A stretch of DNA of 25,988 bases, taken from the IMG/VR virus record IMGVR_UViG_3300030085_003924, positions 48,687 through 74,674 of that record; one strand, written 5' to 3'. Made by a program: the position numbers and the translations under genes. The first letter of the stretch is position 1. Each line of letters starts with the position of its first letter. Of this stretch, positions 7,310 through 22,804 are shown piece after piece. A model generated the notes under the pieces. It saw nothing but the letters and a program-made list of their open reading frames with translations. It did no database searches and was not told the origin of the DNA. This DNA comes from a virus.

Positions 7310-8127
7310 TAACAACAAGATTAAGACATACATTTACACCTAATCCCGAAACAAAGACACCAGACATAGGATTGGCTAATAGATTGTTTCAAATAGCAGC
7401 AGGTATTGGTTATGCAAAAAAATATAATGATAAGGTAGTTTTTCCTGATATCTTACATAAGAACTATGATATTCATAGGAATACTATATTCAGAAATCTA
7501 AACTCTAATGGTGGTTCAAGAAATTTTATACAGAATACACATAGTTATACTGGTTATGGATACCAACCGATACCATTCAAACCAAATATGGAACTTAATG
7601 GTTGGTTTCAATCTTGGAAATATTTTGAAGGTGCAGACAACGAAATAAGAGAAACATTTTCAATACCAACAGATATGATGGATTACTTAAATTCAAAGTA
7701 TTCCGATATTCTAAGTAAAAAAACAGTTAGTGTTCATGTCAGACGAGGTATACAGGCAGCAGACGAAGCCGCATTAAGACAATATCCACAGGCTGGAGCA
7801 GACTATATATCCGAGGCAGTAAAAATGTTTGATTCATCTTATACTTTTGTTTTATTTAGTGATGGTCATAATTGGTGTAGAGAAAATCTCAGAGATGATG
7901 TACCATTTGTTCATATTGAAAATGAAACAGAGATAGTTGATTTATATTTAATGTCACTAATGCATCATAACATTATTTACAATAGTACATTTAGTTGGTG
8001 GAGTGCTTGGTTGAACAAAAATCCAAATAAAAAAATAATCACTCCCAATACTTGGTACGGACCTGATAATCCATGGCCAAACCAACCTGATGAAGATTTG
8101 ATACCAAATAATTGGATACGAATATAA
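7306..8127 (+). CDS. GT11 alpha-1,2-fucosyltransferase
   Basis: The 273 residues hold the GT11 motifs in order: ANRLFQIAAGIGYA at 24-37 (family G-x-GNQxFQ), NGWFQSWKYF at 98-107, VSVHVRRG at 141-148 (GDP-fucose binding), LFSDGHNWC at 183-191, and DLYLMSLMHHNIIYNSTFSWWSAWL near 212-236. It probably transfers L-fucose (or a related GDP-L-sugar) from GDP to a galactose-like acceptor. The Asp that usually follows HxRRG is Ile149 here. Gmd is encoded at 10318, but no clear GDP-fucose synthase (WcaG/Fcl) is seen. The GDP-L-sugar could therefore come from the host or be another sugar, such as GDP-L-galactose made by the epimerase at 4629. Confidence 0.88.
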   Translation: MITTRLRHTFTPNPETKTPDIGLANRLFQIAAGIGYAKKYNDKVVFPDILHKNYDIHRNTIFRNLNSNGGSRNFIQNTHSYTGYGYQPIPFKPNMELNGWFQSWKYFEGADNEIRETFSIPTDMMDYLNSKYSDILSKKTVSVHVRRGIQAADEAALRQYPQAGADYISEAVKMFDSSYTFVLFSDGHNWCRENLRDDVPFVHIENETEIVDLYLMSLMHHNIIYNSTFSWWSAWLNKNPNKKIITPNTWYGPDNPWPNQPDEDLIPNNWIRI

Positions 8128-8807
8128 TGGAAAAAGATATAAATAAAGATTATTTCAAAGAAAAAATAACTAAAGAAAATCCAACAATATTCGATGTTGG
8201 AACTTTTGATGGAAGTGATTGTTTAGATTTTTATTATTTATTTTCAAATCCAACCATCTATGCATTTGAAGCTGATAAAAGGTCAGTTGATATTTTCAAA
8301 AAATATGTTGGTCATAGACCAATTAATTTGGTAGAAACTGCTCTTTCAAATGTAGATGGTGAAATTGAGTTCTATCAAAGTGAAAGTGAAACTCGTAGAC
8401 ACTCTCAAAGATATGATTACGAAAAGACTTGGAGTGCGTCAGGTTCAGTAAAGAAACCAGATAATCACCTTAGTGTATTTCCTGATATACAATTTGAATT
8501 AAATAAAGTTAAATCTACAAAATTAGATACTTGGATGTCAGATAAAGATATTGATTTAATTGATATAATGTGGGTGGATGTTAATGGTGGAGAAGAAGAA
8601 TTTTTAAGTGGTGGAAAAAACACCATAAATAAAAAAGTTAATTATTTATATATAGAATTCAACGGAGTTGATGACCGAAAGTTATACAAAGATTGTTATA
8701 CTGCAAATCAGATTAAAGACACATTACCTAATTTTGAAGAAATAGGTATCTATAATTTTATGGGAAATTTTGGTAATATATTATTGAAGAATAAAGGAGT
8801 AGGATAA
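8127..8807 (+). CDS. FkbM-family SAM-dependent methyltransferase
   Basis: The protein has 226 residues. The SAM motif IFDVGTFDGSD is at 21-31, the acidic ribose-binding residue is in FEAD at 47-50, KLDTWM lies near 132-137, and DVNGGEEEFLSGG (151-163) matches the DVEGxE motif of FkbM methyltransferases, which usually O-methylate sugars or polyketides. The frame extends to a TTG at 8112, but the ATG at 8127 gives a one-base TAATG overlap and is preferred. With the C-methyltransferase at 523 it suggests at least one methylated sugar in the product. Confidence 0.87.
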   Translation: MEKDINKDYFKEKITKENPTIFDVGTFDGSDCLDFYYLFSNPTIYAFEADKRSVDIFKKYVGHRPINLVETALSNVDGEIEFYQSESETRRHSQRYDYEKTWSASGSVKKPDNHLSVFPDIQFELNKVKSTKLDTWMSDKDIDLIDIMWVDVNGGEEEFLSGGKNTINKKVNYLYIEFNGVDDRKLYKDCYTANQIKDTLPNFEEIGIYNFMGNFGNILLKNKGVG

Positions 8808-9568
8808 TGGGAAATTATCAAGGATTAAAGAAAGAAGAAACTCGTAATGAGTATGGTGAAGATATTCATTATACAAGTTGGCCAGTTGGGAAAATTCCTA
8901 AAGAATTTCAACGACCTGAACTTGACCAAGTAAGAGAATTGGGATATGATTGGGATGATCCACGAGATGTAGTGGATATGTTTGAGGAGAAGGTTGCTAA
9001 ATTTGCTGGTAGTAAATACGCTTGTAGTATAGATTCATGTTCCAACGGATTATTTTTGGCAATGAAATATCTTAATGCCGAAGGAACGATTACAATTCCT
9101 AAGAGAACCTATGTTTCACCACCAATGCAAATAATACATGCTGGATGTAAAGTAAAGTTTGAAGATAGAGAATGGAGTGGAGTTTATAAATTAGAACCAT
9201 ATAATATTTGGGATGGTGCTACGGCTTGGACGAAAGGAATGTATGTTGGAAACGATGCAATACAAGTTGTGTCTTTTCAAATAAAGAAAAGAATACCAAT
9301 TGGTCGTGGTGGTATGATATTAACAGATAGTAAAGAGGCATTTGAATGGTTCAAATATGCTACATATGATGGTAGAAATCTTAGAGAATATTATATGGAT
9401 GATAAGTTTGCAATGATTGGTTGGCATATGTATATGACACCTGAAGATGCCGCCAGAGGTATAATATTGATGGATTCAGTTCCAGAGGTAAATGAGGATA
9501 CAGGTGGTTCAACCACATATTCGGACTTATCAGATAGAGAAGTATTTAAAGATTACTTAGGAGAATAA
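8807..9568 (+). CDS. Short DegT/DnrJ/EryC1-type PLP aminotransferase
   Basis: The 253 residues cover only the large domain of the sugar aminotransferase family, whose members usually have 360-400. Conserved points: FAGSKYACSIDSCSNGL at 66-82, a D136-GATAW segment in place of EDxAHxxG (the Asp contacts the PLP ring nitrogen), and SFQIKKRIPIGRGGM at 156-170 with K161 aligned to the PLP-binding lysine. The C-terminal small domain is replaced by a short tail, with no frameshift visible and another gene starting directly after. AAGGAG at 8794-8799 is a good ribosome binding site for the ATG at 8807. It may make an amino sugar alone or work with the full-length homologue at 12149. Confidence 0.82.
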   Translation: MGNYQGLKKEETRNEYGEDIHYTSWPVGKIPKEFQRPELDQVRELGYDWDDPRDVVDMFEEKVAKFAGSKYACSIDSCSNGLFLAMKYLNAEGTITIPKRTYVSPPMQIIHAGCKVKFEDREWSGVYKLEPYNIWDGATAWTKGMYVGNDAIQVVSFQIKKRIPIGRGGMILTDSKEAFEWFKYATYDGRNLREYYMDDKFAMIGWHMYMTPEDAARGIILMDSVPEVNEDTGGSTTYSDLSDREVFKDYLGE

Positions 9569-10321
9569 ATGACACCTAAAATATCCATAGTTACAGCAAC
9601 ACATCGTAGACCTGATTTATTGTACAAATGTATAAAGTCAGTTCAAACCTCAACCTTACAAGAATATGAACATATAATAGTAGGTGACCATTGTGATTGG
9701 GCACAAAGAGTATGTGAGTTATTTTCAGATGATAAAAGAATAAAATATTTTGAAACACCACATCCTCATGTTTGGAATGCTGGTGCCAGTTCAAAAAATA
9801 TTGGGATAGAAAAGGCACAAACTGATTACATTGTTTATTGTGATGATGATAATATAGTATTAGAAAATCATTTAGAGGTGATGTACAATGAGATGTCGAA
9901 GGGAACTAAGTTGTGTGCGTCAAAATTATATGAAATCACATTGGATAATTGGGGAGATGGTTCAATAGAAACTCTCATGAACATACCATTACCAAAGTTA
10001 AATGAATTACAGAATGGTCGGTCACATTATGGTGATATGCAATGTTATGGACACACGAAGTCATTATCGGATTGTGTGGGTGGATGGCAAACAGCCGAAG
10101 AAATACAACACGATAGTAGGTGGACAAAATCAGCAGTAAATGAAGATGGATATTTACTATGGAAATTCGATAGACTTATTAATGAGAAGCCTGTGTTTCT
10201 TGATTCCATAAGTGTTGTGTATTATGGTAGAGGTGCCTGTTCGAATAAAGACAATGAATACGAAAAATTATTAAATATTGATGAACTATTTGTTTATCCA
10301 AACCTTACGGAGAAATTATGA
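9569..10321 (+). CDS. GT2-type (GT-A) glycosyltransferase
   Basis: The 250 residues start with a classical GT2 N terminus: ISIVTATHRRPDLLYKCIKS at 5-24, YEHIIVGDHCD near 33-43, and a metal-binding YCDDDN at 90-95. The segment GRSHYGDMQCYGHTKSL near 153-169 and EDGYLLWKF near 192-200 fall where the acceptor base and ED motif of GT2 enzymes lie. There is no membrane helix, so it is a soluble cytoplasmic enzyme. AGGAG at 9559-9563 precedes the ATG, which directly follows the stop of the aminotransferase. Donor sugar unknown. Confidence 0.85.
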   Translation: MTPKISIVTATHRRPDLLYKCIKSVQTSTLQEYEHIIVGDHCDWAQRVCELFSDDKRIKYFETPHPHVWNAGASSKNIGIEKAQTDYIVYCDDDNIVLENHLEVMYNEMSKGTKLCASKLYEITLDNWGDGSIETLMNIPLPKLNELQNGRSHYGDMQCYGHTKSLSDCVGGWQTAEEIQHDSRWTKSAVNEDGYLLWKFDRLINEKPVFLDSISVVYYGRGACSNKDNEYEKLLNIDELFVYPNLTEKL

Positions 10322-11304
10322 AGAAAAAAGCGTTTATAACAGGTATATCTGGTCAAGATGGTAGTTATCTTGCAGAATTACTATTGGAAAAAGATTATGA
10401 GGTCTATGGTATAATCCGTAGAAACTCCACACCCGAACACCAAGAAAGTAGAATTGACCACTTGGTTGGGAATGGAGTAGAAACAGAGTATGGTGATTTA
10501 CTTGATGTAAGTTCATTAGAGAGAATGATACGAACAATACAACCTGATGAAATATACAACATAGCAGCACAAAGCCATGTTAGAATCAGTATGGATATTC
10601 CACAATTTACAGTTCAGGCTAACTGCCTTGGGTTATTGAATGTATTAGAGGCATATAAAAACAATTGTCCTACCGCAAGATTTTATCAAGCATCATCATC
10701 TGAGATGTTTGGTCGTTCAGTTGATGAGGATGGATATCAAAGAGAAACCACACCTATGCATCCTACAAGTCCTTATGGATGTACAAAAGTATTTGGATTC
10801 AATATGGTAGTTCATTACAGACACGCCTATAAATTATTTGCATCAAATGGTATTCTATTTAATCACGAATCACCAAGACGAGGTTCTAATTTTGTAACCA
10901 ACAAGGTTGTTAAATGTGCTGTTCAAATTAAACACGGATTACGAGACAAGTTACCACTTGGTAATTTAGAAGCATATCGTGATTGGGGACATTCAAAAGA
11001 TTATGTTAGAGCCATGCATATGATTATGAATCATACAGAACCAGATGACTTTGTATGTGCTACAGGTCAGAGTAGGTCGGTAGGAGATATGTGTGAGTAT
11101 GTATTTTCAACTCTTGGATTAGATTACAAAGACTATGTAACTGAAGATCCAAGATTCATGAGAGCAGAAGAATTAAAATATCTTAGAGGTGACTCTACTA
11201 AACTCAGAGAAACCTTTGGATGGGAGCCAGAATATACATTTGAAACCTTGATGGATGAGATGATAGAACATTGGGAAAAAATATACGATTTTGGGAATAA
11301 ATAA
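10318..11304 (+). CDS. gmd: GDP-mannose 4,6-dehydratase (Gmd)
   Basis: Converts GDP-D-mannose to GDP-4-keto-6-deoxy-D-mannose, the branch point to GDP-fucose, GDP-rhamnose, GDP-perosamine and colitose. The 328 residues are a little shorter than the roughly 345-375 of most bacterial Gmd. Diagnostic features are GISGQDGSYLAELLL at 9-23 (NADP binding), RRNST at 34-38, NIAAQSHVRIS at 81-91, SSSEMFG at 126-132 with S128 and E129, Y153-GCT-K157, NHESPRRGSNFVT at 182-194, and RDWGHSKDYV at 221-230. The catalytic Ser/Glu/Tyr/Lys set is intact. ATGA overlap at the start. Likely users in this window are the aminotransferases and the RmlD-like reductase at 13302. Confidence 0.95.
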   Translation: MKKKAFITGISGQDGSYLAELLLEKDYEVYGIIRRNSTPEHQESRIDHLVGNGVETEYGDLLDVSSLERMIRTIQPDEIYNIAAQSHVRISMDIPQFTVQANCLGLLNVLEAYKNNCPTARFYQASSSEMFGRSVDEDGYQRETTPMHPTSPYGCTKVFGFNMVVHYRHAYKLFASNGILFNHESPRRGSNFVTNKVVKCAVQIKHGLRDKLPLGNLEAYRDWGHSKDYVRAMHMIMNHTEPDDFVCATGQSRSVGDMCEYVFSTLGLDYKDYVTEDPRFMRAEELKYLRGDSTKLRETFGWEPEYTFETLMDEMIEHWEKIYDFGNK

Positions 11305-11318
11305 GGATATATATTAAT

Positions 11319-12149
11319 ATGAAAGAAAAGGTTTTAGTAGTAGCTCCAACAACTGCAAGTAGATTACCATTATTAAAAGAGGTTTTAGGAAAATTATATG
11401 ACAATACTAATTTAGACATTAAAACTATTGTTGTAAAGAATGGTACTTATTCAGATGAAGAATATCAGAATTTTGATTTTGGATTACCCAATATAATAAA
11501 AACCACTTCAGAACCTGGTGGACATATATCACATGCTATGAATGTTGGTATGGAATATATGACAGACGAGGATTGGTTTGTATATCAAGAAGATGATATA
11601 GTGTTTCAAAATGAAAAGTGGTTAGAAAATATGATTTCCATATACAAGACTATCGATAATTGTGGTGCCTTTGGAACAAGACTTCATGGACAACAAAGAC
11701 AATTTACTAATACATCAGAGTCTTTGAAAAAGAAAGATGATGATACATTCGAGGTTTATTGGTCAGACGGGTTTACTTTAATTAGTGGTGATATAATTAG
11801 GAAACATAATTTAAGGTATGATGAACATATGATGACCGTTCCAAATGCATGTATTAACTTACAATTAATCGAATTGGGTTATGAAAATTGGAGAACAGAG
11901 TTAGAATATGTCCATCATCACATTGGTGGAGATAGAACTGGTACACCCAAATGGAAACATGCTGATGTACCGATACATATGAAACGAGGTGATTGTCAGA
12001 TTTACCTAAAGTATAATGGATGTGGTATTGAGAAAATACAAGATTGGGTTAATATGGATACTATTAAGGCCAGAGATTGGTTAATATCAAAAGGTAGAGA
12101 TAAAGAAGATTATCAAACTTTTGAGTTGAATGAGGAGAACTATGTATAA
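11319..12149 (+). CDS. Predicted GT-A glycosyltransferase
   Basis: The 276-residue soluble protein has a GT-A layout: VLVVAPTTASRLPLLKEVL at 5-23, TIVVKNGTY at 36-44, GGHISHAMNVGMEYM at 67-81 (the usual G-x-x-x-A-x-N-x-G helix), and WFVYQEDDIVF at 86-96 with EDD as the metal motif. Further on, YWSDGFTLISGDII near 146-159 and EYVHHHIGGDRTGTP near 196-210 resemble the acceptor part. It follows gmd after 14 untranslated bases, one of the few gaps in this operon. Those bases (GGATATATATTAAT) are AT-rich but do not form a convincing promoter. The start codon is ATG. Confidence 0.78.
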   Translation: MKEKVLVVAPTTASRLPLLKEVLGKLYDNTNLDIKTIVVKNGTYSDEEYQNFDFGLPNIIKTTSEPGGHISHAMNVGMEYMTDEDWFVYQEDDIVFQNEKWLENMISIYKTIDNCGAFGTRLHGQQRQFTNTSESLKKKDDDTFEVYWSDGFTLISGDIIRKHNLRYDEHMMTVPNACINLQLIELGYENWRTELEYVHHHIGGDRTGTPKWKHADVPIHMKRGDCQIYLKYNGCGIEKIQDWVNMDTIKARDWLISKGRDKEDYQTFELNEENYV

Positions 12150-13312
12150 TGGATATTAGAGAAAAACCATTAAAGGTTTTAGGGCCATTTGGAGACAAAT
12201 CAGATATAGATTCTATTGGAGAAGTTATTGAAAGTGGATGGTGGGGAAAAGGACCTAAAGTTCAAGAGTTTGAAGAAAAATTTGCAGAACTTGTTGGTGC
12301 AAAACATGCGATAGCAGTTACAAGTAATTCTCATGGTCAAGATTTGGTTATGAAAGCCATGGGATTTAAAGGTATTGATGTTATCAATCCAACAATATCT
12401 TTCGTAGCAACGGCACAGATTCCATTGTGGAATGATTGTACTTCCAACATAGTAGATGTCGATTCTGTAAATCTTAACATAACGGCAGAAGAAGTAGAAA
12501 AGTGGAAGAAACCAAATTCAGAAGTTTGTATTGCTGTGAATATGGCTGGGATTCCAGCACCTATTGACGAGATTAGAAAAGTATTTGGTGGATATATTAT
12601 TGAAGATTGTGCACATAGTTGTTATACAGAAGGTGCTGGTACAAAAGGTGATGTGGCAGTTTGGTCATTTCAGGCAGTGAAAACGATGCCGATTGGTGAT
12701 GGTGGAATGATTACATTAGATGATGATGATTTGGCAAATAGAATCAGAGAAATGTTATGGTTTGGTGTTTCTTCAACTTGGAGTAGAGCAGCAGATTCGA
12801 GTGGTACTCGACCTGGTTACGCTTGGGATTATCAAGTAGATAAACTTGGGTATAAATACTATATGATTGATATTATAGCAGCTCTCGGTTTATCTCAGAT
12901 GAAAAAACTACCTCAATTCTTGGATACTCGTAGACATATACAAAAAAGATATAATGATGAGTTACATCCAATAATCGAAAGACCAGCATATTCTGATACG
13001 GTTCAGTACTATTGTGCTAGATTACCTATGAAGTTTGAAAATATGGCACCTGATGGAAGTGGATATAGCAGAAAAGTGTGTAGAGATGACTTAATTAATT
13101 ACTTGGCAGATAAGAAGATACATACATCAGTTCATTTTAAACCTTTACATCTGTATAATTTATTAAAGGATGATACCAAAAGATTACGAGTTGCAGAACA
13201 AGAGTGGGTGAAGTTAATAAGTTTACCTTGTCACAATGGAATGACAGACGAAGATATAGATTATGTAGTTTATTGGGTTAATAAATTTATAGAGGAAGAA
13301 TATGAAAAGTAG
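12149..13312 (+). CDS. DegT/DnrJ/EryC1-type sugar aminotransferase
   Basis: Full-length PLP enzyme (387 residues) that probably puts an amino group on a 4-keto sugar nucleotide, using glutamate as donor. It shows SGWWGKGPKVQEFEEKFAE at 29-47, TSNSHGQDL at 58-66, IIEDCAHS at 150-157 with D153 contacting the cofactor, and SFQAVKTMPIGDGGM at 173-187 with K178 as Schiff-base lysine. Because Lys is kept, it is not a ColD/E1-type dehydratase, which has His there. With gmd in the same operon, a GDP-perosamine synthase-like reaction is plausible, but a dTDP-sugar substrate is equally possible. One-base TAATG overlap at the start. Confidence 0.88.
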   Translation: MDIREKPLKVLGPFGDKSDIDSIGEVIESGWWGKGPKVQEFEEKFAELVGAKHAIAVTSNSHGQDLVMKAMGFKGIDVINPTISFVATAQIPLWNDCTSNIVDVDSVNLNITAEEVEKWKKPNSEVCIAVNMAGIPAPIDEIRKVFGGYIIEDCAHSCYTEGAGTKGDVAVWSFQAVKTMPIGDGGMITLDDDDLANRIREMLWFGVSSTWSRAADSSGTRPGYAWDYQVDKLGYKYYMIDIIAALGLSQMKKLPQFLDTRRHIQKRYNDELHPIIERPAYSDTVQYYCARLPMKFENMAPDGSGYSRKVCRDDLINYLADKKIHTSVHFKPLHLYNLLKDDTKRLRVAEQEWVKLISLPCHNGMTDEDIDYVVYWVNKFIEEEYEK

Positions 13313-14000
13313 ACTCATATTAGGTGATGGTAGTTTAGGAACTGAATTAGTCAAACAAACTGGTTGGGATTATATTAGTAGAAAGAAAGATGGTATTGAT
13401 TTTAAGGATATTAAAACATATCAAGGCTATATGTTTGGTTATGATGAGATAATTAATTGTATAGCATGTACTAATACTTATGACAAATGGAAAGATGAAA
13501 ATTGGAATACAAATTATAAGGGTGTAGTTGATTTAGTGGATTATCTTGATGGAACAGACACGAAGCTAATTCAGTTTTCTACCGATTATGTTTATGCCCA
13601 ATCAAAGACAAACGCCTCTGAAACAGATGTTCCTGTACACAATGGAAATTGGTATAGTTATACAAAGGTAATATCAGAACCATACATAGAATTGAGATTA
13701 GACGATTACTTAATAATAAGGTCAACTCACAAACCAAGACCTTTTATGTTCGAAAAGGGATTGATAAGTCAAATTGGTAACTTTGATTATATTGATATTG
13801 TTTCAAAAATATATATTGATTTGATAGAAGGAGATGCAAAAGGTATTTATAATGTTGGAACTGAATTAAAAACTATGTATGAATTGGGTAAGAGAACTAA
13901 GGATGACATCGTACCCACTAATGAAAAATTTCACGATACCATGCCATTGGATGTGAGTATGAATTTAACTAAACTAAAGAAGTTTTATGATAAAAAATAA
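13302..14000 (+). CDS. RmlD-like NAD(P)-dependent sugar reductase/SDR
   Basis: The 232 residues resemble the dTDP-4-dehydrorhamnose reductase family. LILGDGSLGTEL at 5-16 is the nucleotide-binding loop, INCIACTNTYDKW at 51-63 sits where family members have NxAAYTxVD, FSTDYVYA is at 92-99, and Y118-SYT-K122 is the catalytic pair. It is shorter than typical RmlD (about 290), and the C-terminal substrate-binding part is compact. It could reduce the 4-keto group of either the RmlC product or the Gmd product. The ATG lies 11 bases inside the previous gene. Function beyond keto-sugar reduction is not supported. Confidence 0.8.
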   Translation: MKSRLILGDGSLGTELVKQTGWDYISRKKDGIDFKDIKTYQGYMFGYDEIINCIACTNTYDKWKDENWNTNYKGVVDLVDYLDGTDTKLIQFSTDYVYAQSKTNASETDVPVHNGNWYSYTKVISEPYIELRLDDYLIIRSTHKPRPFMFEKGLISQIGNFDYIDIVSKIYIDLIEGDAKGIYNVGTELKTMYELGKRTKDDIVPTNEKFHDTMPLDVSMNLTKLKKFYDKK

Positions 14001-14688
14001 GAAAGTAGCATTTGTTGTAGCATTACATCAAAGTAAATTACATAGACCTAATGGATTTGAGCTGTTTAATAATTATATTGGTTCTGTATATGATTCGTGT
14101 GAATATCCATTTAAAGTTTTTGCATTTGACAACCAATCCGACCATAAATTTGAAGTAGAAAACCAACCAGATAATTTGACCATAACAAGAGTTGATGACC
14201 AATACAAGGGTGGATGTACTTATACTTGGAATGAAGGAATTAAACAGGCAATTAAAGAAGATTTTGATGTAGTAATAATAACTTCAGATGACCAAATTTA
14301 TAATGAATCTGTAAACGATTTTGTAGATGTTATATTAACACACGAACTTAGAGACGATGCTATATTTGGCCCGATGTCAAATAATCCAAATAACAATTAT
14401 CAATTATCTCATGAACCAATTGATGATGTGTGGGAGATTTCAGGAAAACCAGAAGATGAACTAAATGGATTCTGTTTGGCAATGACACGAGAGTCTATTG
14501 AGAAGAATTACTTTGATGAGGATGGTAATTTTTTTAACACAGGACAAGAATTTATTTGGGGTAAACAGGATGTTGAAGTCCAGTCGAGAGTTGGGCATTC
14601 CATAGTGGTTGGAAAATGTTATGTTCATCATTATAAACAAGGTGGGTGGAGAGAGATACGAGATGGTTTGAGGATAGATGATGTCTAA
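13987..14688 (+). CDS. GT2-like glycosyltransferase
   Basis: The 233-residue soluble protein has a GT2-like start (VAFVVALHQSKL at 7-18), FAFDNQSDHKFEV at 46-58 in place of VVDNxSxD, the helix GGCTYTWNEGIKQAI at 75-89, and IITSDDQIY at 97-105 as the metal motif. DELNGFCLAMTRE near 156-168 matches the GxxxxxRR-like acceptor segment seen in rhamnosyltransferase-type GT2 proteins, and EFIWGKQDVEVQSR near 188-201 matches the ED-x-x-x-x-R part. The ATG at 13987 overlaps the upstream gene by 14 bases. Donor unknown. Confidence 0.82.
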   Translation: MIKNKKVAFVVALHQSKLHRPNGFELFNNYIGSVYDSCEYPFKVFAFDNQSDHKFEVENQPDNLTITRVDDQYKGGCTYTWNEGIKQAIKEDFDVVIITSDDQIYNESVNDFVDVILTHELRDDAIFGPMSNNPNNNYQLSHEPIDDVWEISGKPEDELNGFCLAMTRESIEKNYFDEDGNFFNTGQEFIWGKQDVEVQSRVGHSIVVGKCYVHHYKQGGWREIRDGLRIDDV

Positions 14689-15454
14689 AAATGTCGTGTT
14701 CATACCTAATATAGATTTAGGTGATGGTAGAAATAAATCCTATAAATACTCAATAGATAGTTGGAGTCATTTCGCTAAGAAGAACGATTGTGAGTTATTG
14801 ATTTGGGAAGATTTATTATTTCCCATAGAACAAATGAAGATAACTTGGCAACGATATTATATGTTTGATATTTTAGAGGCAAATAATATTGATTATGACC
14901 AAATTTTAATAGTTGATGCTGATACAATAGTTCATCCTGATTGTCCTAATTTCTTTACAGAGACAAATGGTAAGTATAGTGTAGTTAGAAATAATGGTAG
15001 TTTTGAGTGGACGAGAAGGTCAATGGATGGATTCTCTAAATTATTATTTGATGGAGAAGTTCCATTTAAAGTGTGGGATTATTTCAATTGTGGATTTCAG
15101 ATTGTTAATAAAGAACACAAGGAGTTTTTTGAATATGTGAGAGATTATTATTTAGAAAACCAAAATAAGATACAAAACGCTATAGAACAAGTTCGAGCTG
15201 GTACAGACCAAACACTAATCAATTTTTTAATTAGAGAACAGAATGTAGAATTAAATTATTTACCGATAGAATATAATTTACAGGATTTACATTCAAAACA
15301 ACTACTATTTCTTCATCCACAAATGTGGTTCGAAGATAAATTAATATTCGAAAATTGTGGTTATGTATTTCATTTTAATGCGATACCACCAAATGATATG
15401 AATAGAGATGCAAGTTATTGGATTAAAAGAACATATGAGGAGTTTTACGGATGA
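14678..15454 (+). CDS. DxD-containing GT-A glycosyltransferase (GT8/GT34-like)
   Basis: The 258 residues contain the clear DxD motif ILIVDADTIVHPDCPNFF (77-94, D80 and D82) with the preceding helix ITWQRYYMFDILEA (55-68) typical of retaining GT-A enzymes. Later, DYFNCGFQIVNKEH near 130-143 matches the NxGxxxxN region, and TDQTLINFLI near 173-182 matches the DQxxlN segment of the GT8-like folds. A C-terminal FHFNAIPP near 235-242 holds the His that often binds the metal-nucleotide. Two ATGs, at 14678 and 14681, are possible; AGGA at 14671-14674 is better spaced for the second. Substrate unknown. Confidence 0.8.
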   Translation: MMSKNVVFIPNIDLGDGRNKSYKYSIDSWSHFAKKNDCELLIWEDLLFPIEQMKITWQRYYMFDILEANNIDYDQILIVDADTIVHPDCPNFFTETNGKYSVVRNNGSFEWTRRSMDGFSKLLFDGEVPFKVWDYFNCGFQIVNKEHKEFFEYVRDYYLENQNKIQNAIEQVRAGTDQTLINFLIREQNVELNYLPIEYNLQDLHSKQLLFLHPQMWFEDKLIFENCGYVFHFNAIPPNDMNRDASYWIKRTYEEFYG

Positions 15455-16374
15455 AAGTAGCATTCTTTTCAGAAACGGGTAGTAATCAAAAATATCCAAG
15501 AGACTTTCCAAATGCCCGTACAGAAGTGGGTTGGTGTTTGGCATTAGATGCCCCAATGTGTCATTTGAATCCATCCATAAAGGAGAGATTAGAAAATTTC
15601 GATTTAGGGATAGTTATAATTCCTAAAAATAATCCTGAAAAGATTGATTGGGATTGGATAAGGAGTAAGTGTAAAAATGTTGCGGTAATGCAAGAAGGCC
15701 CACATTGGTACTTTCAAGATTATACAATCGATAAACAATTTCATTATTATAATAGTTTACTTGAAGCAGATTGGGTATATTGTCATAATACTTCAGATGT
15801 AAATTACTACAAAGGATTAGGATGTAAAGATGTTAGGGTGATGAGAAGTTTGATGATACCTGATGGATTAGTCCCAAGAAACGAGTGGGGAGATGTAACA
15901 ATTATTGGTGGTAATTTTGTTAGTTGGTATGGTGGATTTGATTCCTATATGGTTGCAAGAGAGATAGGAGACCCGATAGTAGCACCATCAATGGGTAGGA
16001 AACAAGATTTGGAAAATCAAATAGAAGATATTCAGTATTTACCATACATGAGTTGGAGAGATTGGATTAATAGTTTATCCCAATACAATATAGGAATACA
16101 TTTGATGAGAACACATGCAGCTGGTACATTCGCTATGAATTGTGGATTTCATGGAATACCATGTATTGGATACAAAGGATTGGACACACAAGAATTAATA
16201 TTTCCAAACACAACAATAGAGGTTGGTGATTTGGAAGGAGCACAAAAGATAGCAAAGAAACTCAAAACGGATGAAAAATTTTATGATGAGTGTAGTAAAG
16301 AAGCATTATATAGATTTAGTGAATATTACACAGAAGAAAAATGGTTAGAAAATTGGGAGAATACAAACAAATGA
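15451..16374 (+). CDS. GT-B-like glycosyltransferase
   Basis: The 307-residue protein has no membrane segments. The N-terminal half holds LGIVIIPKN near 52-60 and VAVMQEGPHWYFQDY near 77-91. The C-terminal half has VTIIGGNFVSWYGG near 148-161, IQYLPYMSWRDWINSLSQYNIGIHL near 193-217, and HAAGTFAMNCGFHGIPCIGYKG near 221-242. That is the order of a GT-B donor domain (strand, loop, then the E-x7-E-like helix region, here without the usual Glu pair). ATGA overlap at the start. It is the second GT-B-like protein of the operon; the other is at 2967. Donor and acceptor unknown. Confidence 0.72.
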   Translation: MKVAFFSETGSNQKYPRDFPNARTEVGWCLALDAPMCHLNPSIKERLENFDLGIVIIPKNNPEKIDWDWIRSKCKNVAVMQEGPHWYFQDYTIDKQFHYYNSLLEADWVYCHNTSDVNYYKGLGCKDVRVMRSLMIPDGLVPRNEWGDVTIIGGNFVSWYGGFDSYMVAREIGDPIVAPSMGRKQDLENQIEDIQYLPYMSWRDWINSLSQYNIGIHLMRTHAAGTFAMNCGFHGIPCIGYKGLDTQELIFPNTTIEVGDLEGAQKIAKKLKTDEKFYDECSKEALYRFSEYYTEEKWLENWENTNK

Positions 16375-18044
16375 AAATAGTCGGATTTCAATCTGGACAC
16401 GATGTTTCATATTGTGTTTTAGAAGATGGTGTACCTATAATACACGAGGAGTTAGAGAGATTTACAAGAGAGAAAGAACCATATGGTGATGGTTTAGAAA
16501 TGTTCTTTAATATAGTCGAAGATGTTGATGAATATAAATACTTTTGTTACGGAAATCCTGGTAATAGAACTGGTAGGATACAGGCAGGTTCAATGAACAC
16601 AAATCCTGAATCATCTAAAAAAATGAATGATTTAATTGAAAAAAATGATGGTCAGTTTTATATTATAAGTCATCATCAATCTCATGCAGCAAATGCATTC
16701 TTTTCGAGTAATCATGATGAGGCATTAATCATAACCATTGATGGTGCAGGAGTAGATAAAACTGATTGGGAAGATATTACAAGTGAACGAGATGGAACTG
16801 ATGAATTCTCATTCCCAACATCATTCACTTTTTGGATGGGTAAGGGTAACAAAATCAAACCTTTAGAACGAATACATATGTACGAAATTACATTGGGTTC
16901 ACCTTATAAAATATTCACAAGAGATTTATTTGGTTTATCTGGTGGTTATCCACACGGAAATCAGGCAGGAACGGTAATGGCAATGGCATGTATGGGAGAT
17001 TCTGATAAATATTGGAAGGAGTTTTACGATAGTTTGAAATTAGGTGGTGGTGGACCTTCTGCCTCTAATATGAACTTAGCAAAAAAATACAGAGAGTTGA
17101 TTGAAAGTGAAGTAGATGAAAAGAAAAAAGAAACTTTAAAGTTTGATGTATCAGCTGGAATACAGAGAGCAGTAGAAACGATAGCGAAAGAATATATTAC
17201 ACCTTATGTGGATAAATACAATCCTAAAAATATTTGTATGGCTGGTGGTGTGGCATTAAATTCTGTAATCGTTGGTAAAATGTATGATTGGTATCCTGAT
17301 GTTAAAGATATATATGTATGTCCTGTACCATATGATGCAGGGTTGGGAATAGGTTCAGCACAATATGTATATCATCAAGTAATGGATAATCCAAGAATTA
17401 CTTGGAAGGATAATACATCACCTTATTTGGGTAGGACTTATGATTTAGAAGATATTCAAGAATCTTTAAATGAAGTTAAAGATAAAGTATCCACAGAAGA
17501 AGTAGATGATGATGCTGTAGCTATGTTATTATCAGTAGATAATAATGTTATTTCAGTATTTGGTGGTGGTTCAGAATCAGGTCGTAGAGCATTAGGAAAC
17601 AGAAGTATATTAGCAGATCCGAGAAGTCCTGATATGAAAGATATCATAAATGAAAAGGTAAAACACAGACAATGGTTTAGACCATTTGCTCCAAGTATTA
17701 CACGAGAGGATGTAAAAGATTGGTTTGAGAAAGATGTAGATAGTCCTTACATGACCGCCGTAATAAAGTTCAAAGAGGAGATGAGAGACAAAGTACCAGC
17801 TGTAGTTCATTTTGATGGTTCGGCTAGATTACAGACGGTAACAGAGAATGATAACGAATGGTATTACAACTTTATTAAAAAGTTTGAATCTATGTCGGGT
17901 GTTCCTATTGTATTAAATACAAGTTTTAACGATAGGGAGCCGATTGTTGAAACACCAGAACACGCAATTAATTGTTTTTTACGGACAGACATAGACTATT
18001 TATATTTTAGAGAGTATGGAATATTAGTGAGGAAAAATGGATAA
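16371..18044 (+). CDS. NodU/TobZ/CmcH-family carbamoyltransferase
   Basis: Transfers a carbamoyl group from carbamoyl phosphate to a hydroxyl via carbamoyl-adenylate. The 557 residues are normal for the family. The N-terminal Kae1-like domain has GFQSGHDVSYCVLEDG at 5-20, HHQSHAANAF at 101-110 (metal-binding H101 and H105), ITIDGAG at 121-127, and CMAGGVALNSV at 289-299 for ATP binding. The C-terminal YrdC-like carbamoyl domain begins near 395 with VFGGGSESGRRALGNRSILADPR (396-418), then RPFAPSI (437-443) and VLNTSFNDREPI (514-525). The frame extends to an ATG at 16341, but the ATG at 16371 (ATGA overlap) starts exactly at the conserved MKIVGF. Sugar carbamoylation as in NodU is the likely use. 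Confidence 0.94.
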   Translation: MKIVGFQSGHDVSYCVLEDGVPIIHEELERFTREKEPYGDGLEMFFNIVEDVDEYKYFCYGNPGNRTGRIQAGSMNTNPESSKKMNDLIEKNDGQFYIISHHQSHAANAFFSSNHDEALIITIDGAGVDKTDWEDITSERDGTDEFSFPTSFTFWMGKGNKIKPLERIHMYEITLGSPYKIFTRDLFGLSGGYPHGNQAGTVMAMACMGDSDKYWKEFYDSLKLGGGGPSASNMNLAKKYRELIESEVDEKKKETLKFDVSAGIQRAVETIAKEYITPYVDKYNPKNICMAGGVALNSVIVGKMYDWYPDVKDIYVCPVPYDAGLGIGSAQYVYHQVMDNPRITWKDNTSPYLGRTYDLEDIQESLNEVKDKVSTEEVDDDAVAMLLSVDNNVISVFGGGSESGRRALGNRSILADPRSPDMKDIINEKVKHRQWFRPFAPSITREDVKDWFEKDVDSPYMTAVIKFKEEMRDKVPAVVHFDGSARLQTVTENDNEWYYNFIKKFESMSGVPIVLNTSFNDREPIVETPEHAINCFLRTDIDYLYFREYGILVRKNG

Positions 18045-19257
18045 GGTAATAAGTTTTATACAACCAAGTAGAAACAATTTAAAATATTTAAAGTGGTCTT
18101 ACAATAGTATAAGAAAACACTTAGGATACAGACATGAGATATGTATGTCTGATGATTTCTCGGATGATGGTACTTGGGAATGGATGAACGAAATAGTTAA
18201 GAAAGACCCGAATGTACAGATACATAGAAATAACGGGCCTGAAAGATTAGGACATACAATTCTATATGATACATTAGTCGATATGGCTACCAATGATATT
18301 GTGATGATTTATCACGCCGATATGTATGCTTGTCCTAACTTAGATACAGAGATACTTAAACATTTGGAACGAGGTAAGGTAGTAAGTGCAACACGGATAG
18401 AACCACCATTACATCCTGATGGGCCAGAAAAGGTTTTACAAGATTTTGGAATAGAACCTGAGGAGTTTGATGAAGAAGGATTATTGAATTTTATAAATCA
18501 GACTTGGGAAGGAATGCCAGAAGATAAGATTACTAATGGAATATTTGCTCCGTGGGCGATATACAAAGATGACTTTACAAGTATTGGTGGACACGACCCG
18601 TTATATGCACCACAATCAAAAGAGGACTCGGATATATTCAACAGATTTAAATTGGCTGGTTATGAATTAATTCAGACTTGGGAAGGTTATGTTTATCATA
18701 TGACTTGTAGAGGTTCAAGATTTAAAGATGGGGCTCTTAGAAATCCAGCAGGTCAAGTATTTATGAAGGGTAGAGAATCATCGGAGTGGTTAGCACAAAA
18801 CCTTAGAAGTACAAGAAACTTTATTCGTAAATGGGGACATATGGTAAAACACGATGAACTATTACATCCAATTATCCCACCAAAATATGATGTAGGATTT
18901 GTGGTTAAGAATTGTGACAATAAAATGTTAAGAGAGTTAGAACCTTGGTGTTCGGATATGTATGGTGATTGGGTTGGACATAAAGGATTTGGTGTGAATA
19001 AATACATTGAAGAAGAACAACCAAACACTCAGTTTGATTTGAGTAAGAAATTACACTCACTCTATACTGAACCTGATAATGATGTGGTTATTAGGTTTGA
19101 TGCCAGTAAATTGAATCAAGATAACTTCCAAATAATAGTTAATTTATCAGAGATACTTCAACAAAGCGGTGAAGTCGGTGAGATGGAGTTAGAAATATTT
19201 GAATTTTTTATAAAATCACTTGATACTTATGAAAGAGAATTAATAAATGTTAAATAA
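18037..19257 (+). CDS. GT2-type glycosyltransferase with C-terminal extension
   Basis: The protein has 406 residues. The first 250 or so form a GT2 domain: ISFIQPSRNNLKYLKWSYNS at 5-24, ICMSDDFSDDGTWEWM at 35-50, MIYHADMYACPN at 90-101 (H-A-D in place of DxD), WAIYKDDFTSIGGHDP near 173-188, and APQSKEDSDIFNRF near 191-204 (the ED motif). About 150 further residues are hydrophilic and not recognised, with an acidic, leucine-rich end that could bind a partner. ATGGATAA overlap (eight bases) with the carbamoyltransferase. It appears to be the last transferase of the main glycan operon. Confidence 0.83.
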   Translation: MDKVISFIQPSRNNLKYLKWSYNSIRKHLGYRHEICMSDDFSDDGTWEWMNEIVKKDPNVQIHRNNGPERLGHTILYDTLVDMATNDIVMIYHADMYACPNLDTEILKHLERGKVVSATRIEPPLHPDGPEKVLQDFGIEPEEFDEEGLLNFINQTWEGMPEDKITNGIFAPWAIYKDDFTSIGGHDPLYAPQSKEDSDIFNRFKLAGYELIQTWEGYVYHMTCRGSRFKDGALRNPAGQVFMKGRESSEWLAQNLRSTRNFIRKWGHMVKHDELLHPIIPPKYDVGFVVKNCDNKMLRELEPWCSDMYGDWVGHKGFGVNKYIEEEQPNTQFDLSKKLHSLYTEPDNDVVIRFDASKLNQDNFQIIVNLSEILQQSGEVGEMELEIFEFFIKSLDTYERELINVK

Positions 19258-19693
19258 AAAAATCTGTATTTTTGGTCCACCATGTGTAGGTAAGACTACT
19301 TTAGCATATACGGCTTTAAAAAATAAAATACCTTCATTTACCACACATGATTATAATCCATCCATGTGGCAAAGTAATGAAGAATTTTTTACTCGTATAC
19401 TTAATTTAGATATACCTTTATTTCTTGATGTTGGAGGAAAAAATATTGGTTGGATAGATGGTGGAGATGATATAAAAACAGTATTATTATTACCACCAAG
19501 AGATGTTTATTTAGAACGAGAGAGAATGGATATTGAAAATATAGGAGAACATAGGAATCAAAGTGGTATACAACACTATGATGACTTAATGGAATCAAAA
19601 TCAGAATTTGATTTAGTTATTGAAGATGTCTTATCTCCACAAGAGATTTTTGATTATATTATTGAAACAATGGAACTTAAAAATGAATTATAA
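19247..19693 (+). CDS. Small P-loop kinase-like protein
   Basis: The 148 residues include a Walker A motif GPPCVGKTT at 10-18 straight after the first strand, a probable Walker B strand IPLFLDVGG at 56-64, and an arginine-rich lid-like segment PPRDVYLERERMD near 83-95. The size and layout suit a small nucleotide, shikimate-type or sugar kinase, or an adaptor ATPase, but the substrate cannot be read. The ATG lies 11 bases inside the upstream transferase, and the following APRT starts 11 bases inside this gene, so it may be co-translated with nucleobase salvage. Confidence 0.72.
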   Translation: MLNKKICIFGPPCVGKTTLAYTALKNKIPSFTTHDYNPSMWQSNEEFFTRILNLDIPLFLDVGGKNIGWIDGGDDIKTVLLLPPRDVYLERERMDIENIGEHRNQSGIQHYDDLMESKSEFDLVIEDVLSPQEIFDYIIETMELKNEL

Positions 19694-20189
19694 AGATTAT
19701 ATTATAGAAGTACAAGATTTTCCAATCGATGGTGTGAACTTTAAAGACCTTTCACCATTACTTGCCGACCAAGAGACATTTAGGTCTGCTCTCGTGGAAA
19801 TGGGAAAGAGAGTCAGACTACCTGATTATTGGATTGGGATAGATTCTCGTGGATACATATTTGCATCAGGTTTAGCCACATATTTTGGTGGTGGTGTTGT
19901 ATGTGCAAGGAAAGAAGGAAAGACACCAGGTGATAAGGTATCGGTTAGTTATGATTTAGAATATGGAAGTGCCACATTAGAGATGGGAAAACTCGGAATG
20001 GGTGGTGGAGAGGCCGTAATAGTGGACGATGTTCTCGCCACAGGTGGAACACTCAAGGCAACCAATGAGTTAGCAGAAAGGGCTGGATATAGTGTGGTTG
20101 GTAACTTGGTATTGGTTGATTTAAAATATGTACCGAGAGTTGATAATTTTAATTTAAATGTGAGGAGTGTAATAAAATATGAAGATTAG
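19683..20189 (+). CDS. apt: Adenine phosphoribosyltransferase
   Basis: Makes AMP and pyrophosphate from adenine and PRPP. The 168 residues fit the family length (about 170-180). The N terminus carries VQDFPIDGVNFKDLSPLL (10-27), the signature of APRT (family DxPxPGIxFxDxTPLL). GIDSRGYIFASGLA at 52-65, ARKEGKTPGD at 75-84, LEYG at 92-95, and the PRPP-binding loop EAVIVDDVLATGGT at 110-123 are all intact. An in-frame ATG at 19620 lies inside the upstream gene and is rejected, because the conserved protein begins at 19683. Adenine could be supplied by the nucleosidase at 22106. Confidence 0.93.
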   Translation: MNYKDYIIEVQDFPIDGVNFKDLSPLLADQETFRSALVEMGKRVRLPDYWIGIDSRGYIFASGLATYFGGGVVCARKEGKTPGDKVSVSYDLEYGSATLEMGKLGMGGGEAVIVDDVLATGGTLKATNELAERAGYSVVGNLVLVDLKYVPRVDNFNLNVRSVIKYED

Positions 20190-20661
20190 AGATATTACGA
20201 TATTGTCATTAATAGTTTTGGCAGTATTAACAAGATTAATTCCACATCCACCAAATGTAGCACCAATAACAGCAATAGCACTATTCGGTGGAAGTAGGTT
20301 TGATGATAAGAAAATGGCATTTTTATTACCATTATTATGTATGTTTATTTCAGATATATTTTTGGGTTTTAGTGTCATAACACCATTTGTATATTTGTCA
20401 TTTATGATGATTTCATATATTGGTATAAATTCAAAAAAAATTAGTAACGGAACAATACTTGGTAGTTCTACATTGTTCTTTTTACTTACAAACTTTGGTG
20501 TTTGGATGTTGGGGTATCCTTTCACACTTGCTGGATTGGTTAGTTGCTATACTATGGCATTACCATTCTTTGTTAATACAATTATAGGTGATTTATTTTT
20601 CACCCATGCCCTTAGTTATAGTTTCTCTACAATAAAGAAAAAACTACCACAATTAACATAA
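20179..20661 (+). CDS. DUF6580-like integral membrane protein
   Basis: The 160 residues contain about five predicted hydrophobic segments: 7-18, 28-38, 47-64, 68-83 and 94-140 (probably two). Conserved family-like motifs are RLIPHPPNVAPITAIALFGG (19-38), AFLLPL near 47-52 with S58-D59, FFLLTNFGVWM (100-110), and CYTMALPFFVNTIIGDLFF (123-141). DUF6580 proteins resemble the substrate-binding S components of ECF vitamin transporters and often lie near cobalamin uptake genes in Bacteroidota. No ECF ATPase or T component is present, so any transport would depend on host partners. The ATG is 11 bases inside apt. Confidence 0.8.
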   Translation: MKIRDITILSLIVLAVLTRLIPHPPNVAPITAIALFGGSRFDDKKMAFLLPLLCMFISDIFLGFSVITPFVYLSFMMISYIGINSKKISNGTILGSSTLFFLLTNFGVWMLGYPFTLAGLVSCYTMALPFFVNTIIGDLFFTHALSYSFSTIKKKLPQLT

Positions 20662-20677
20662 CAGAAAAGGAAACAAA

Positions 20678-21694
20678 ATGAATAAAATGGTTATAACTCT
20701 AATAACATCGTTGTTATTAATAAGTGGTTGTAGTAATCCAACGGAATCTAATGAACCAGCTATAGTACAAGAATGGGTATTTGTAGCAAATGAGGGTAAC
20801 TTTGGTGCCAGTAATGGTTCTATATCTATGATTAATCAAGACGGCATTGTTCTTGAGGTCACAGAAGTTGGAGATGTAGTTCAATCATTAGAGGTATACG
20901 AAAACAAACTAATCGTGGTTGTAAACAATAGTCATATGATTAAGGTTTATGATATTACAGAAGATGGTTTAGCTTTACCAGGTATCGAAGTATCAACAGA
21001 CAACTCAAGTCCAAGAGAACTCGTGGTGGTAGGAGATAAAGTATATTTTACTAATTGGAATACTAAAGATGTAAAGGTATTAAATCTATTCAATTATAAT
21101 ATAGAAACTTCTATATCAGTTGATGGATTACCAGAATCAATAGTTTCAGATGGTTCGTATCTTTGGGTAGGAATTATGATGAATGAAGATTATAGTTCAG
21201 CAAGTAGTGTAGTCAAGATTGATATGAATACTAATTCAGTAGTTGAAACATACGAGGTAGGATTGGGACCAACTTCATTGGAAGTAGATGAGGATGAGGT
21301 TTATGTAGCAAGAACATTCTATGATGAGAATTGGATTCCATTTTATGGTTCAAGTAAAATAGATGGTTCTGGTATTACTATAAATAATTATGGTGCAGGG
21401 GTGGCCTGTGGTGGTTCAGTAATGAAATATAATAATGAAATCTATCGTTCATTTGATGGTGGTATAGCAAAATTAGATTTTGAATTAAATATAAATACAG
21501 CATCAAAGATAGGTTCATATGACCAATCTCAAGTATATTCTACTGAAGTAATCGGAGATTATATATATTTCGGTATTACCAATTATGTAGATGTGAACCA
21601 AGTAAGAGTAGTAGATTTTAATAATAATGAAATCTCTACATATGATGTTGGAATATCACCTGGAGATTTTGCGGTTTGGAAAAATAATGAGTAA
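20678..21694 (+). CDS. YncE/DUF5074-like beta-propeller lipoprotein
   Basis: The 338-residue exported lipoprotein has a short positive N terminus, a hydrophobic stretch, and lipobox LISGC with C18 as lipid-bearing residue. The mature part begins VFVANEGNFGASNGSISMI (33-51), matching the NEGNF-x-x-x-N-x-S-I-S opening of DUF5074/YncE-like surface proteins. It then shows repeated beta-propeller blades of about 40 residues with VGDVVQSLEVYENKLIVVVNNS (68-89), SPRELVVVGDKVYFTNW (108-124) and GLPESIVSDGSYLWVG (149-164). In Bacteroidota such proteins accompany corrinoid receptors, so binding of a vitamin-like ligand at the outer membrane is possible but unproven. AAGG at 20667-20670 is a suitable ribosome binding site. 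Confidence 0.85.
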   Translation: MNKMVITLITSLLLISGCSNPTESNEPAIVQEWVFVANEGNFGASNGSISMINQDGIVLEVTEVGDVVQSLEVYENKLIVVVNNSHMIKVYDITEDGLALPGIEVSTDNSSPRELVVVGDKVYFTNWNTKDVKVLNLFNYNIETSISVDGLPESIVSDGSYLWVGIMMNEDYSSASSVVKIDMNTNSVVETYEVGLGPTSLEVDEDEVYVARTFYDENWIPFYGSSKIDGSGITINNYGAGVACGGSVMKYNNEIYRSFDGGIAKLDFELNINTASKIGSYDQSQVYSTEVIGDYIYFGITNYVDVNQVRVVDFNNNEISTYDVGISPGDFAVWKNNE

Positions 21695-22106
21695 AAGAAA
21701 AATGTGGAAAGATGCAGATAAATCACTTCTGAAATCTTTACCAAACTTAGATGGTGAAAATCCATACGAATTAAAAATGAAACAACCTGAATTAACATTC
21801 TTGGGTGTGTATGAACAACCTGATTTTGCCACATTGTATATTTTGATGCATCCTAATGGTAAAATAGTTGAGTTAAAATCGTTGAAGATATACCTACAAC
21901 AATATAGGGATATCATAATATCATATGAGAGATTGACAAATGTGATTTACGACCATATGATGGAAGTCTACTCACCACAGAGATTACGACTTGTGTTGGA
22001 TTGTATGCCACGAGGTGGTATCATGTCAAGAGTAACCATCGATTCTGATTGGGCTGTAAAGGGTGGAGAAGAAAAATACAATAGTTGGGGTGAAGATGTC
22101 TGGTAA
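21687..22106 (+). CDS. QueF-like T-fold protein lacking the catalytic Cys and His
   Basis: The 139 residues align along their length with NADPH-dependent preQ0 reductase QueF of the short single-domain type. Kept residues: QPDFATLYI at 44-52 with D46, the substrate motif VELKSLKIYL at 61-70, E81, and PRGGI at 108-112. Two essential residues differ. The family motif TSLCP is TFLGV (37-41), so the nucleophilic cysteine is Gly40 and the loop is one residue shorter. The catalytic His before the conserved Glu is Tyr80. Preq0 reduction or thioimide formation should therefore be impossible, while the deazapurine pocket may remain. In-frame ATG at 21627 rejected; ATG at 21687 gives an ATGAGTAA overlap. 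Function unknown. Confidence 0.85.
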   Translation: MSKRKMWKDADKSLLKSLPNLDGENPYELKMKQPELTFLGVYEQPDFATLYILMHPNGKIVELKSLKIYLQQYRDIIISYERLTNVIYDHMMEVYSPQRLRLVLDCMPRGGIMSRVTIDSDWAVKGGEEKYNSWGEDVW

Positions 22107-22804
22107 TGCTATCACAATCATTTTTAATACAACGAGGTTATTGTTGTGGACACGGATGTTTGATGTGTCCATACGAACCCAAACACACAAAAGGAAATAC
22201 TAAACTTATGGGTTATGGTAATGTAGAGAAAAAACCACTCATAGTTTGTGCACTCGAAGTTGAGACACAAGGACAATTGGATGACTACGATGTATTATAT
22301 ACAGGAGTTGGTAAGGTTAATGCCACATTCAAACTTACACAGAAGTTTGGTAAACATGGTAGTTATATTCCATATGATATGGTAATCAATTATGGAACTG
22401 CTGGTAGTAGAAAAATAAAGAAGAAACAATTAGTTGATTGTACGAAGTTTATTCAAAGAGATATGGATGTTACTGGTCTTGGATTCATGAGAGGTGAAAC
22501 ACCATTTGAAGATAATCCACCAATAACAATAGAAACATCTAAGGATGTATTTAATCCTATTGGTAGGAGAGCAACTTGTGGTACAGGTGATAATTTTGCA
22601 GAGGATAAATCACAATACTATGGTGAGGTTGTTGATATGGAAGCCTACGGATTGGCAAAGGTATGTTATCACTATGATGTTCCATTTATCTCATTCAAAT
22701 ATATTACAGATGGGGCTGATGAACAGGCTCACGAAGATTGGGAAGCAAATCTTGCCGATGGTATAGAAGTATTTAAGGAAAAAATATTAAAGGAATTGAA
22801 ATGA
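22106..22804 (+). CDS. Cys-motif (DUF5522-like) fused to a nucleoside phosphorylase/nucleosidase
   Basis: The protein has 232 residues in two parts. Residues 4-23 carry RGYCCGHGCLMCPY (C13, C14, C18, C21), matching the RGYCCGxGCxxCPY hallmark of small DUF5522 proteins, a likely metal or Fe-S site. From residue 44 a PNP/UDP-type domain follows: IVCALEVETQG (46-56, E51), INYGTAGS (94-101), CGTGDNFA (158-165), VVDMEAYGLAKVC (175-187, E179), and YITDGAD (199-205, D202). These match the catalytic positions of methylthioadenosine/SAH nucleosidase, so base release from a nucleoside is likely, though the base is uncertain. TAATG overlap with the QueF-like gene suggests coupled translation. Confidence 0.85.
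   Translation: MLSQSFLIQRGYCCGHGCLMCPYEPKHTKGNTKLMGYGNVEKKPLIVCALEVETQGQLDDYDVLYTGVGKVNATFKLTQKFGKHGSYIPYDMVINYGTAGSRKIKKKQLVDCTKFIQRDMDVTGLGFMRGETPFEDNPPITIETSKDVFNPIGRRATCGTGDNFAEDKSQYYGEVVDMEAYGLAKVCYHYDVPFISFKYITDGADEQAHEDWEANLADGIEVFKEKILKELK

Follow-up and report, generated by a model that had tools for sequence, protein, structure and literature searches.

The gene at positions 21687 to 22106 of this DNA raises the question of what a protein of the QueF fold does once the catalytic cysteine of QueF is gone. The window (the whole stretch that was analysed, 25,988 nucleotides) forms the last part of a viral IMG/VR record of 74.7 kb. An earlier note, made from the letters alone, had described a QueF-like product without the nucleophilic Cys and the catalytic His. 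It had suggested a binding protein, a sensor or a new reaction on a deazapurine or pterin-like compound. The genes that matter here are the following.

19686..20189, + strand: adenine phosphoribosyltransferase (APRT), matching NF002636 with 159.7 bits (cut-off 125); recycles adenine released by the nucleosidase
20179..20661, + strand: DUF6580 membrane protein; shares with the next ORF the slot of MetK in close relatives
20678..21694, + strand: putative lipoprotein, no Pfam match; its 3' end, stop codon included, extends 8 nt into the QueF-like gene
21687..22106, + strand: Cys-less QueF-fold protein of 139 aa (profile matches, alignment, AlphaFold2 model); proposed T-fold methylene-THF reductase
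22106..22804, + strand: MTA/SAH-type nucleosidase (PNP_UDP_1) with an N-terminal DUF5522 Cys motif (profile matches)

The QueF-like protein and its fold

The QueF-like ORF starts with the ATG at 21687 and stops with the TAA at 22104-22106. A mechanically called start at 21627 is not supported, as relatives begin at the Met of 21687. QueF was the sole Pfam family matched (1.8e-19, 70 bits; cut-off 27). The NCBIfam QueF-II match scores 89.4 bits against an equivalog cut-off of 86.9, so automatic annotation would read preQ(1) synthase. The nearest solved structures are those of B. subtilis QueF, the C55A mutant among them. The AlphaFold2 model (pLDDT 82, pTM 0.79) matches B. subtilis QueF (4fgc/4f8b) with TM scores of 0.77-0.79. 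A T-fold QueF domain is present by both profiles and modelled fold, and the well-kept QueF frame described earlier is borne out.

The alignment to B. subtilis QueF places Gly40 at Cys55, with one residue fewer before Gln44 of the QPDFA strand, as the earlier note had seen. Asp62 (Asp46 in the window protein), the substrate anchor Glu97 (Glu81) and PRGGI are retained. The NADPH motif ESKSLKLY of B. subtilis reads ELKSLKIY here. Across the relatives described below it is nearly invariant as E-L-K-S-h-K-x-Y, with a variable seventh position (I in the window protein), compared with E(S/L)K(S/A)hK(L/Y)(Y/F/W). The protein ends with a clade-specific TIDSDW tail. Sequences without Cys55 have been treated as non-QueF (PMC5372742). 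By the published definition (Cys, Asp, Glu and motif), the window protein is not a QueF, since it fails on the Cys.

The change of His96 to Tyr80 is also seen in the alignment. The substitution itself stands, but its reading as a sign of lost catalysis does not, because many QueFs that keep the Cys have Tyr or Met there. His is not universal in QueF. Tyr was rejected as a clade hallmark, being common among QueFs with Cys, for example in Planctomycetes (many, including L098-L102, L105, L106, L112, L116, L130, L134 and L135). Met occupies the position in several viral QueFs (L041, L043, L049, L078 and L084).

A clade of proteins without the cysteine

A first scan returned two near relatives with 96-98% protein identity. 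A scan with an alignment of Cys-less proteins returned 207 viral relatives, of which 80 were kept, and the dereplicated set comprises 66 proteins (54 viral and 12 bacterial). One further match, L004, was rejected as false, having only a short peptide in common. Gly40, Tyr80, Asp46 and Glu81 are present in 66/66 members and the core of the NADPH motif is essentially invariant. Fourteen clade-invariant positions (F38, G40, S79, R82, R99, R101, S114, D119, S120, D121, W122, G126, G127 and W134; S120 in 65/66) are seldom or never found in ordinary QueFs, the comparison set for these residue counts holding a few GTP cyclohydrolases picked by length. Tyr80 comes in addition to these and occurs in ordinary QueFs too.

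In a tree made without the cyclohydrolases, the proteins form a single clade with a support of 100 (SH-aLRT, short alignment); its branch is 1.9 changes per column long. Values of dN/dS between clade relatives are 0.03-0.12, which is strong purifying selection. The clade is real, conserved and previously overlooked. The earlier note had allowed for an isolated degraded copy without relatives sharing Gly40 and Tyr80; the opposite was found.

Gly at the Cys position was rejected as a hallmark by itself, since one protein with Gly falls outside the clade. This QueF of a Bacteroidetes MAG (L148:3225-5333) reads TTLGPVNRQ, with Gly for Cys; nothing is deleted there, and the signature residues of the clade are all missing. 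Judged by these letters it would be an independent loss of the Cys. Its genome has MetF.

The closest known enzyme is unimodular QueF/YkvM, the NADPH-dependent 7-cyano-7-deazaguanine reductase (EC 1.7.1.13), with which the window protein has in common the T-fold, the Asp, the Glu, the motif core E(S/L)K(S/A)hK and PRGGI. It differs from this enzyme in the missing Cys55, the shorter loop, the Tyr for His and a gene context without queuosine genes, and in the clade-specific F38, S79, R82, R99, R101, D119-S-D-W, GG and W134. Archaeal QueF-like (QueF-L, archaeosine synthase) is also a T-fold QueF homologue of different activity; its substrate is preQ0-tRNA and it still has the thioimide Cys (PMC5485725), which the window protein does not.

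Methionine-cycle neighbours and the distribution of MetF

A methionine-cycle gene lies within two genes of the QueF-like gene in 12 of the 54 dereplicated viral loci; the other 42 have no methionine gene beside it. Within 8 kb, every methionine-cycle gene found in these 54 loci lay at most two genes away, and none further. MetK is at -1 or +1 in 7/7 cases, AhcY at +2 in 4/4, MetE at +1 in 2/2, MetH at +1 in 1/1 and the nucleosidase at +1 in 4/4. Counted by contig, MetE is directly downstream on three and MetH on one. Close relatives of the window have the order APRT, MetK, QueF-like gene, nucleosidase. In two of them, L002 and L003, MetK holds the slot taken in the window by the DUF6580 protein and the lipoprotein (20179-21694). 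APRT, nucleosidase, MetK, the QueF-like gene and MetE lie inside 6 kb in L029. The order is MetK, QueF-like gene, MetH, AhcY in L036, and QueF-like gene, MetK, AhcY in L302, L303, L317, L319 and L328. The adjoining MetE has its N-terminal domain and the MetH its pterin-binding domain (Pfam). With these folate-binding parts present, both should need 5-methyl-THF. The linkage to methionine synthase genes, by which we would recognise a methylene-THF reductase, is found in these viruses.

Two viral-database contigs with MetH and no QueF-like gene (L481 and L485) have MetF directly beside MetH, where it takes the place held by the QueF-like gene in phages. Both came from scans for phage MetE or MetH, which returned the QueF-like loci together with MetH contigs that are possibly host DNA, these two included; with single MetE or MetH sequences as queries, nothing but the starting loci was returned. 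Cultured-phage records with MetE or MetH in our judgement mostly look like host DNA. No MetF was found in 81 viral loci, and MTHFR was absent from all 16 viral records searched, including a 273-kb record with MetH.

The nucleosidase of the window was followed separately. Its start codon and the QueF-like stop codon do overlap (TAATG at 22106); the earlier note had called the two genes translationally coupled. The dedicated partnership proposed from this coupling was rejected, because about 75 further viral loci have the nucleosidase and no QueF-like gene nearby, the DUF5522 motif occurs elsewhere, and the QueF-like gene is found more broadly next to MetK, MetE, MetH or AhcY. The nucleosidase fits as one more gene of the methionine/SAM cycle. 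The DUF5522 segment of 35 residues (MLS.EFL..RGYCCGHGCLMCPYEPKHTKGN) precedes the nucleosidase in the window (22106-22210) and an unrelated glycosyltransferase in L236:6001-6105, and some relatives' nucleosidases are without it. The segment behaves like a mobile N-terminal module or a small gene. APRT and the MTA/SAH nucleosidase are a recurrent pair in L177-L217; where there is no QueF-like gene, the two are usually separated by a gene for a PhoH-like ATPase.

No MetK, MetE, MetH or MetF was detectable in the rest of the window's own record. Positions 523-19257 of the window hold a long sugar-nucleotide cluster with epimerases, a carbamoyltransferase (NodU/CmcH type) and glycosyltransferases. 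Radical-SAM-like and glutamine-synthetase-like ORFs lie elsewhere in the record.

The bacterial sample comprised 71 species genomes (MAGs) of the deltaproteobacterial class to which the genome of L097 belongs. Twelve of the 71 have the Cys-less protein (189-213 bits). Among 379 genomes of the phylum there were no carriers beyond the class, the next matches reaching at most 84 bits against at least 189. MetF (PF02219) is present in 0/12 carriers and in 53/59 of the other class genomes; a Fisher test gives p = 1.45e-9, if the genomes were independent. MetH is present in 12/12 carriers, whole or in fragments. Besides the Cys-less protein, no carrier has a QueF-family protein above cut-off; ten further genomes of the class were tested and had none. 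No conserved neighbours of the gene were found in the bacterial carriers.

Since these are MAGs, and rpoB was undetected in 6/12 carriers, a missing MetF in one genome proves little. Five carriers have a full rpoB and yet no MetF (G025, G028, G037, G038 and G069). If each carrier showed a gene half the time, the probability of missing MetF in all 12 would be 0.00024. The carriers are scattered on trees and give two to three independent contrasts on rpoB and four supported ones (seven in all) on MetH. None runs in the wrong direction, but they are too few for a sign test to reach 0.05. Methionine synthase without detectable MetF (PF02219) is what the carriers have, as expected of hosts of another methylene-THF reductase, read with this incompleteness and phylogeny in mind.

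The proposed reaction and its alternatives

From these data we infer a substrate, a use of cofactor, a chemistry and a biological role. The protein is probably a Cys-free, QueF-derived T-fold reductase that uses NADPH to reduce the iminium of 5,10-methylene-THF, and so a non-homologous replacement of MetF. MAG incompleteness and the small number of independent phyletic contrasts limit our confidence in this reading. The product would be 5-methyl-tetrahydrofolate, feeding MetE or MetH upstream of MetK and SAM. Of the earlier suggestions, that of a new reaction with a pterin-like substrate is the one to which the evidence points. We know of no solved T-fold protein that binds methylene-THF. A full-text literature search found no paper linking QueF with methylenetetrahydrofolate reductase.

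T-folds bind purines and pterins; QueF uses Glu97 to anchor preQ0 and its motif helix to bind NADPH (PMC5372742). Its reaction passes through a Cys thioimide, which is reduced once, and the imine then released is reduced to preQ1 in the final step (PMC5372742). The QueF Asp is a general acid/base (PMC5485725). In MTHFR-type enzymes, methylene-THF is protonated to a 5-iminium cation that accepts hydride, and the mycobacterial Mfr does this flavin-free, with direct hydride transfer from NAD(P)H (NADH) (PMC11094777).

Pterin and preQ0 share a 2-amino-4-oxo-pyrimidine ring, and in the window protein Glu81 would anchor this ring of the pterin in the way that Glu97 of QueF anchors it in preQ0. Asp46, the counterpart of the general acid Asp62, would protonate the substrate, and the N5-CH2-N10 bridge would open to give the N5 iminium. 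NADPH on the ELKS.K helix would then give one hydride to the exocyclic carbon, forming N5-CH3. The pterin N5 would correspond to C7 of preQ0, each being bonded to the ring-fusion carbon that adjoins the oxo carbon, so that the carbon to be reduced would hang from an equivalent ring atom in both. A nitrile needs activation by Cys as a thioimide and an iminium does not, and we propose that the Cys for this reason became Gly and the loop was shortened. We speculate that the p-aminobenzoyl-glutamate part may be held by the arginines specific to the clade together with the DSDW tail.

The protein would share its reaction and pathway position with the FAD-dependent MTHFR MetF (PF02219), and its logic of hydride transfer directly from NAD(P)H to the 5-iminium with Mfr (PMC11094777). 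It is neither of these, because fold and sequence differ: MetF is a TIM barrel with FAD and no sequence relation to the window protein, and Mfr is a TIM barrel distantly related to MetF, whereas the window protein is modelled as a T-fold.

An NADPH-dependent pterin or folate reductase of another kind, such as a dihydrofolate or dihydropteridine reductase analogue supporting the one-carbon cycle, would have the same T-fold, anchor Glu and NADPH motif and would sit as well beside folate-linked methionine synthases. The complementarity is specifically with MetF, in genomes that keep MetH, and MetF is what fills the slot beside MetH on other contigs, which makes this reading unlikely. Loss of the nucleophile next to MetK, MetE and MetH could also suggest a protein without catalysis that binds a ligand of the methionine/SAM or folate cycle or regulates the cycle, either as a T-fold sensor or as a subunit accessory to methionine synthase or MetK. 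Such a protein is quite improbable: the conservation of the NADPH-motif core, Asp46 and Glu81 goes beyond the need of binding alone, the gene stands alone in bacteria and many phages, and binding or sensing explains the complementarity poorly, leaving the missing MetF unaccounted for. That the gene is a decayed or drifting copy of QueF without a definite function, as the lost Cys alone would suggest, was rejected on clade conservation and dN/dS. With 14 clade-specific invariant positions kept in one clade of viruses and bacteria, we give it practically no weight.

The fold and the conserved anchor Glu could also belong to a 7-deazapurine enzyme that works without the Cys in modifying phage DNA or tRNA (one example being the 7-carboxy-7-deazaguanine chemistry proposed for DpdL) or to a binder of preQ0 or preQ1. 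Phage QueFs exist in 7-deazaguanine DNA pathways (PMC6884629), and in the known phage clusters (L005-L013) QueC/D/E, FolE and DpdA adjoin QueF. The true pathway QueFs of phi38:2, Mufasa8, Funsized and HVTV-1, however, keep the Cys, and no TGT/DpdA-like protein (PF01702, which some DpdA types may escape), QueD or above-cut-off QueC was found in 14 relative records, where one sub-cut-off QueC match reached 16 bits; the window's own record has no TGT. The deazapurine role suggested earlier was therefore not upheld, and we regard this reading as very unlikely, slightly more so than a sensor. Of the QueFs named, those of Cellulophaga phage phi38:2, Mufasa8 and Funsized (L005:5836-6237, L012:2842-3249 and L013:1296-1694) adjoin QueC/D/E, FolE and TGT/DpdA genes and show Gln/Tyr or Cys in place of the His. 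DpdL, reportedly described by Cui et al. in 2023 as a phage 7-carboxy-7-deazaguanine decarboxylase, belongs to 7-deazaguanine DNA pathways; such a home for the window protein was rejected, as the pathway genes were missing from the records searched.

To our knowledge, all established methylene-tetrahydropterin reductases (MTHFR, Mfr and Mer) are (beta-alpha)8 barrels. If the proposed methylene-THF reductase activity is true, the T-fold enzyme would be an independent evolutionary solution for a most central one-carbon step, and the new activity would have arisen through loss of the catalytic cysteine, the residue thought to define the parent enzyme. The NCBIfam annotation as preQ(1) synthase would then need correction, and the supply of methyl-folate in MetH-bearing bacteria seemingly without MetF would be explained. 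Aquatic phages would then carry regeneration modules for methionine and SAM that include methionine synthase. We think it rather likely that a flavin-free, NADPH-dependent T-fold methylene-THF reductase is a widespread third, non-TIM-barrel solution, one that stands in for MetF in some bacteria and that many aquatic phages carry, at times within a portable cassette for SAM regeneration (methionine synthase and MetK, with either AhcY or nucleosidase plus APRT).
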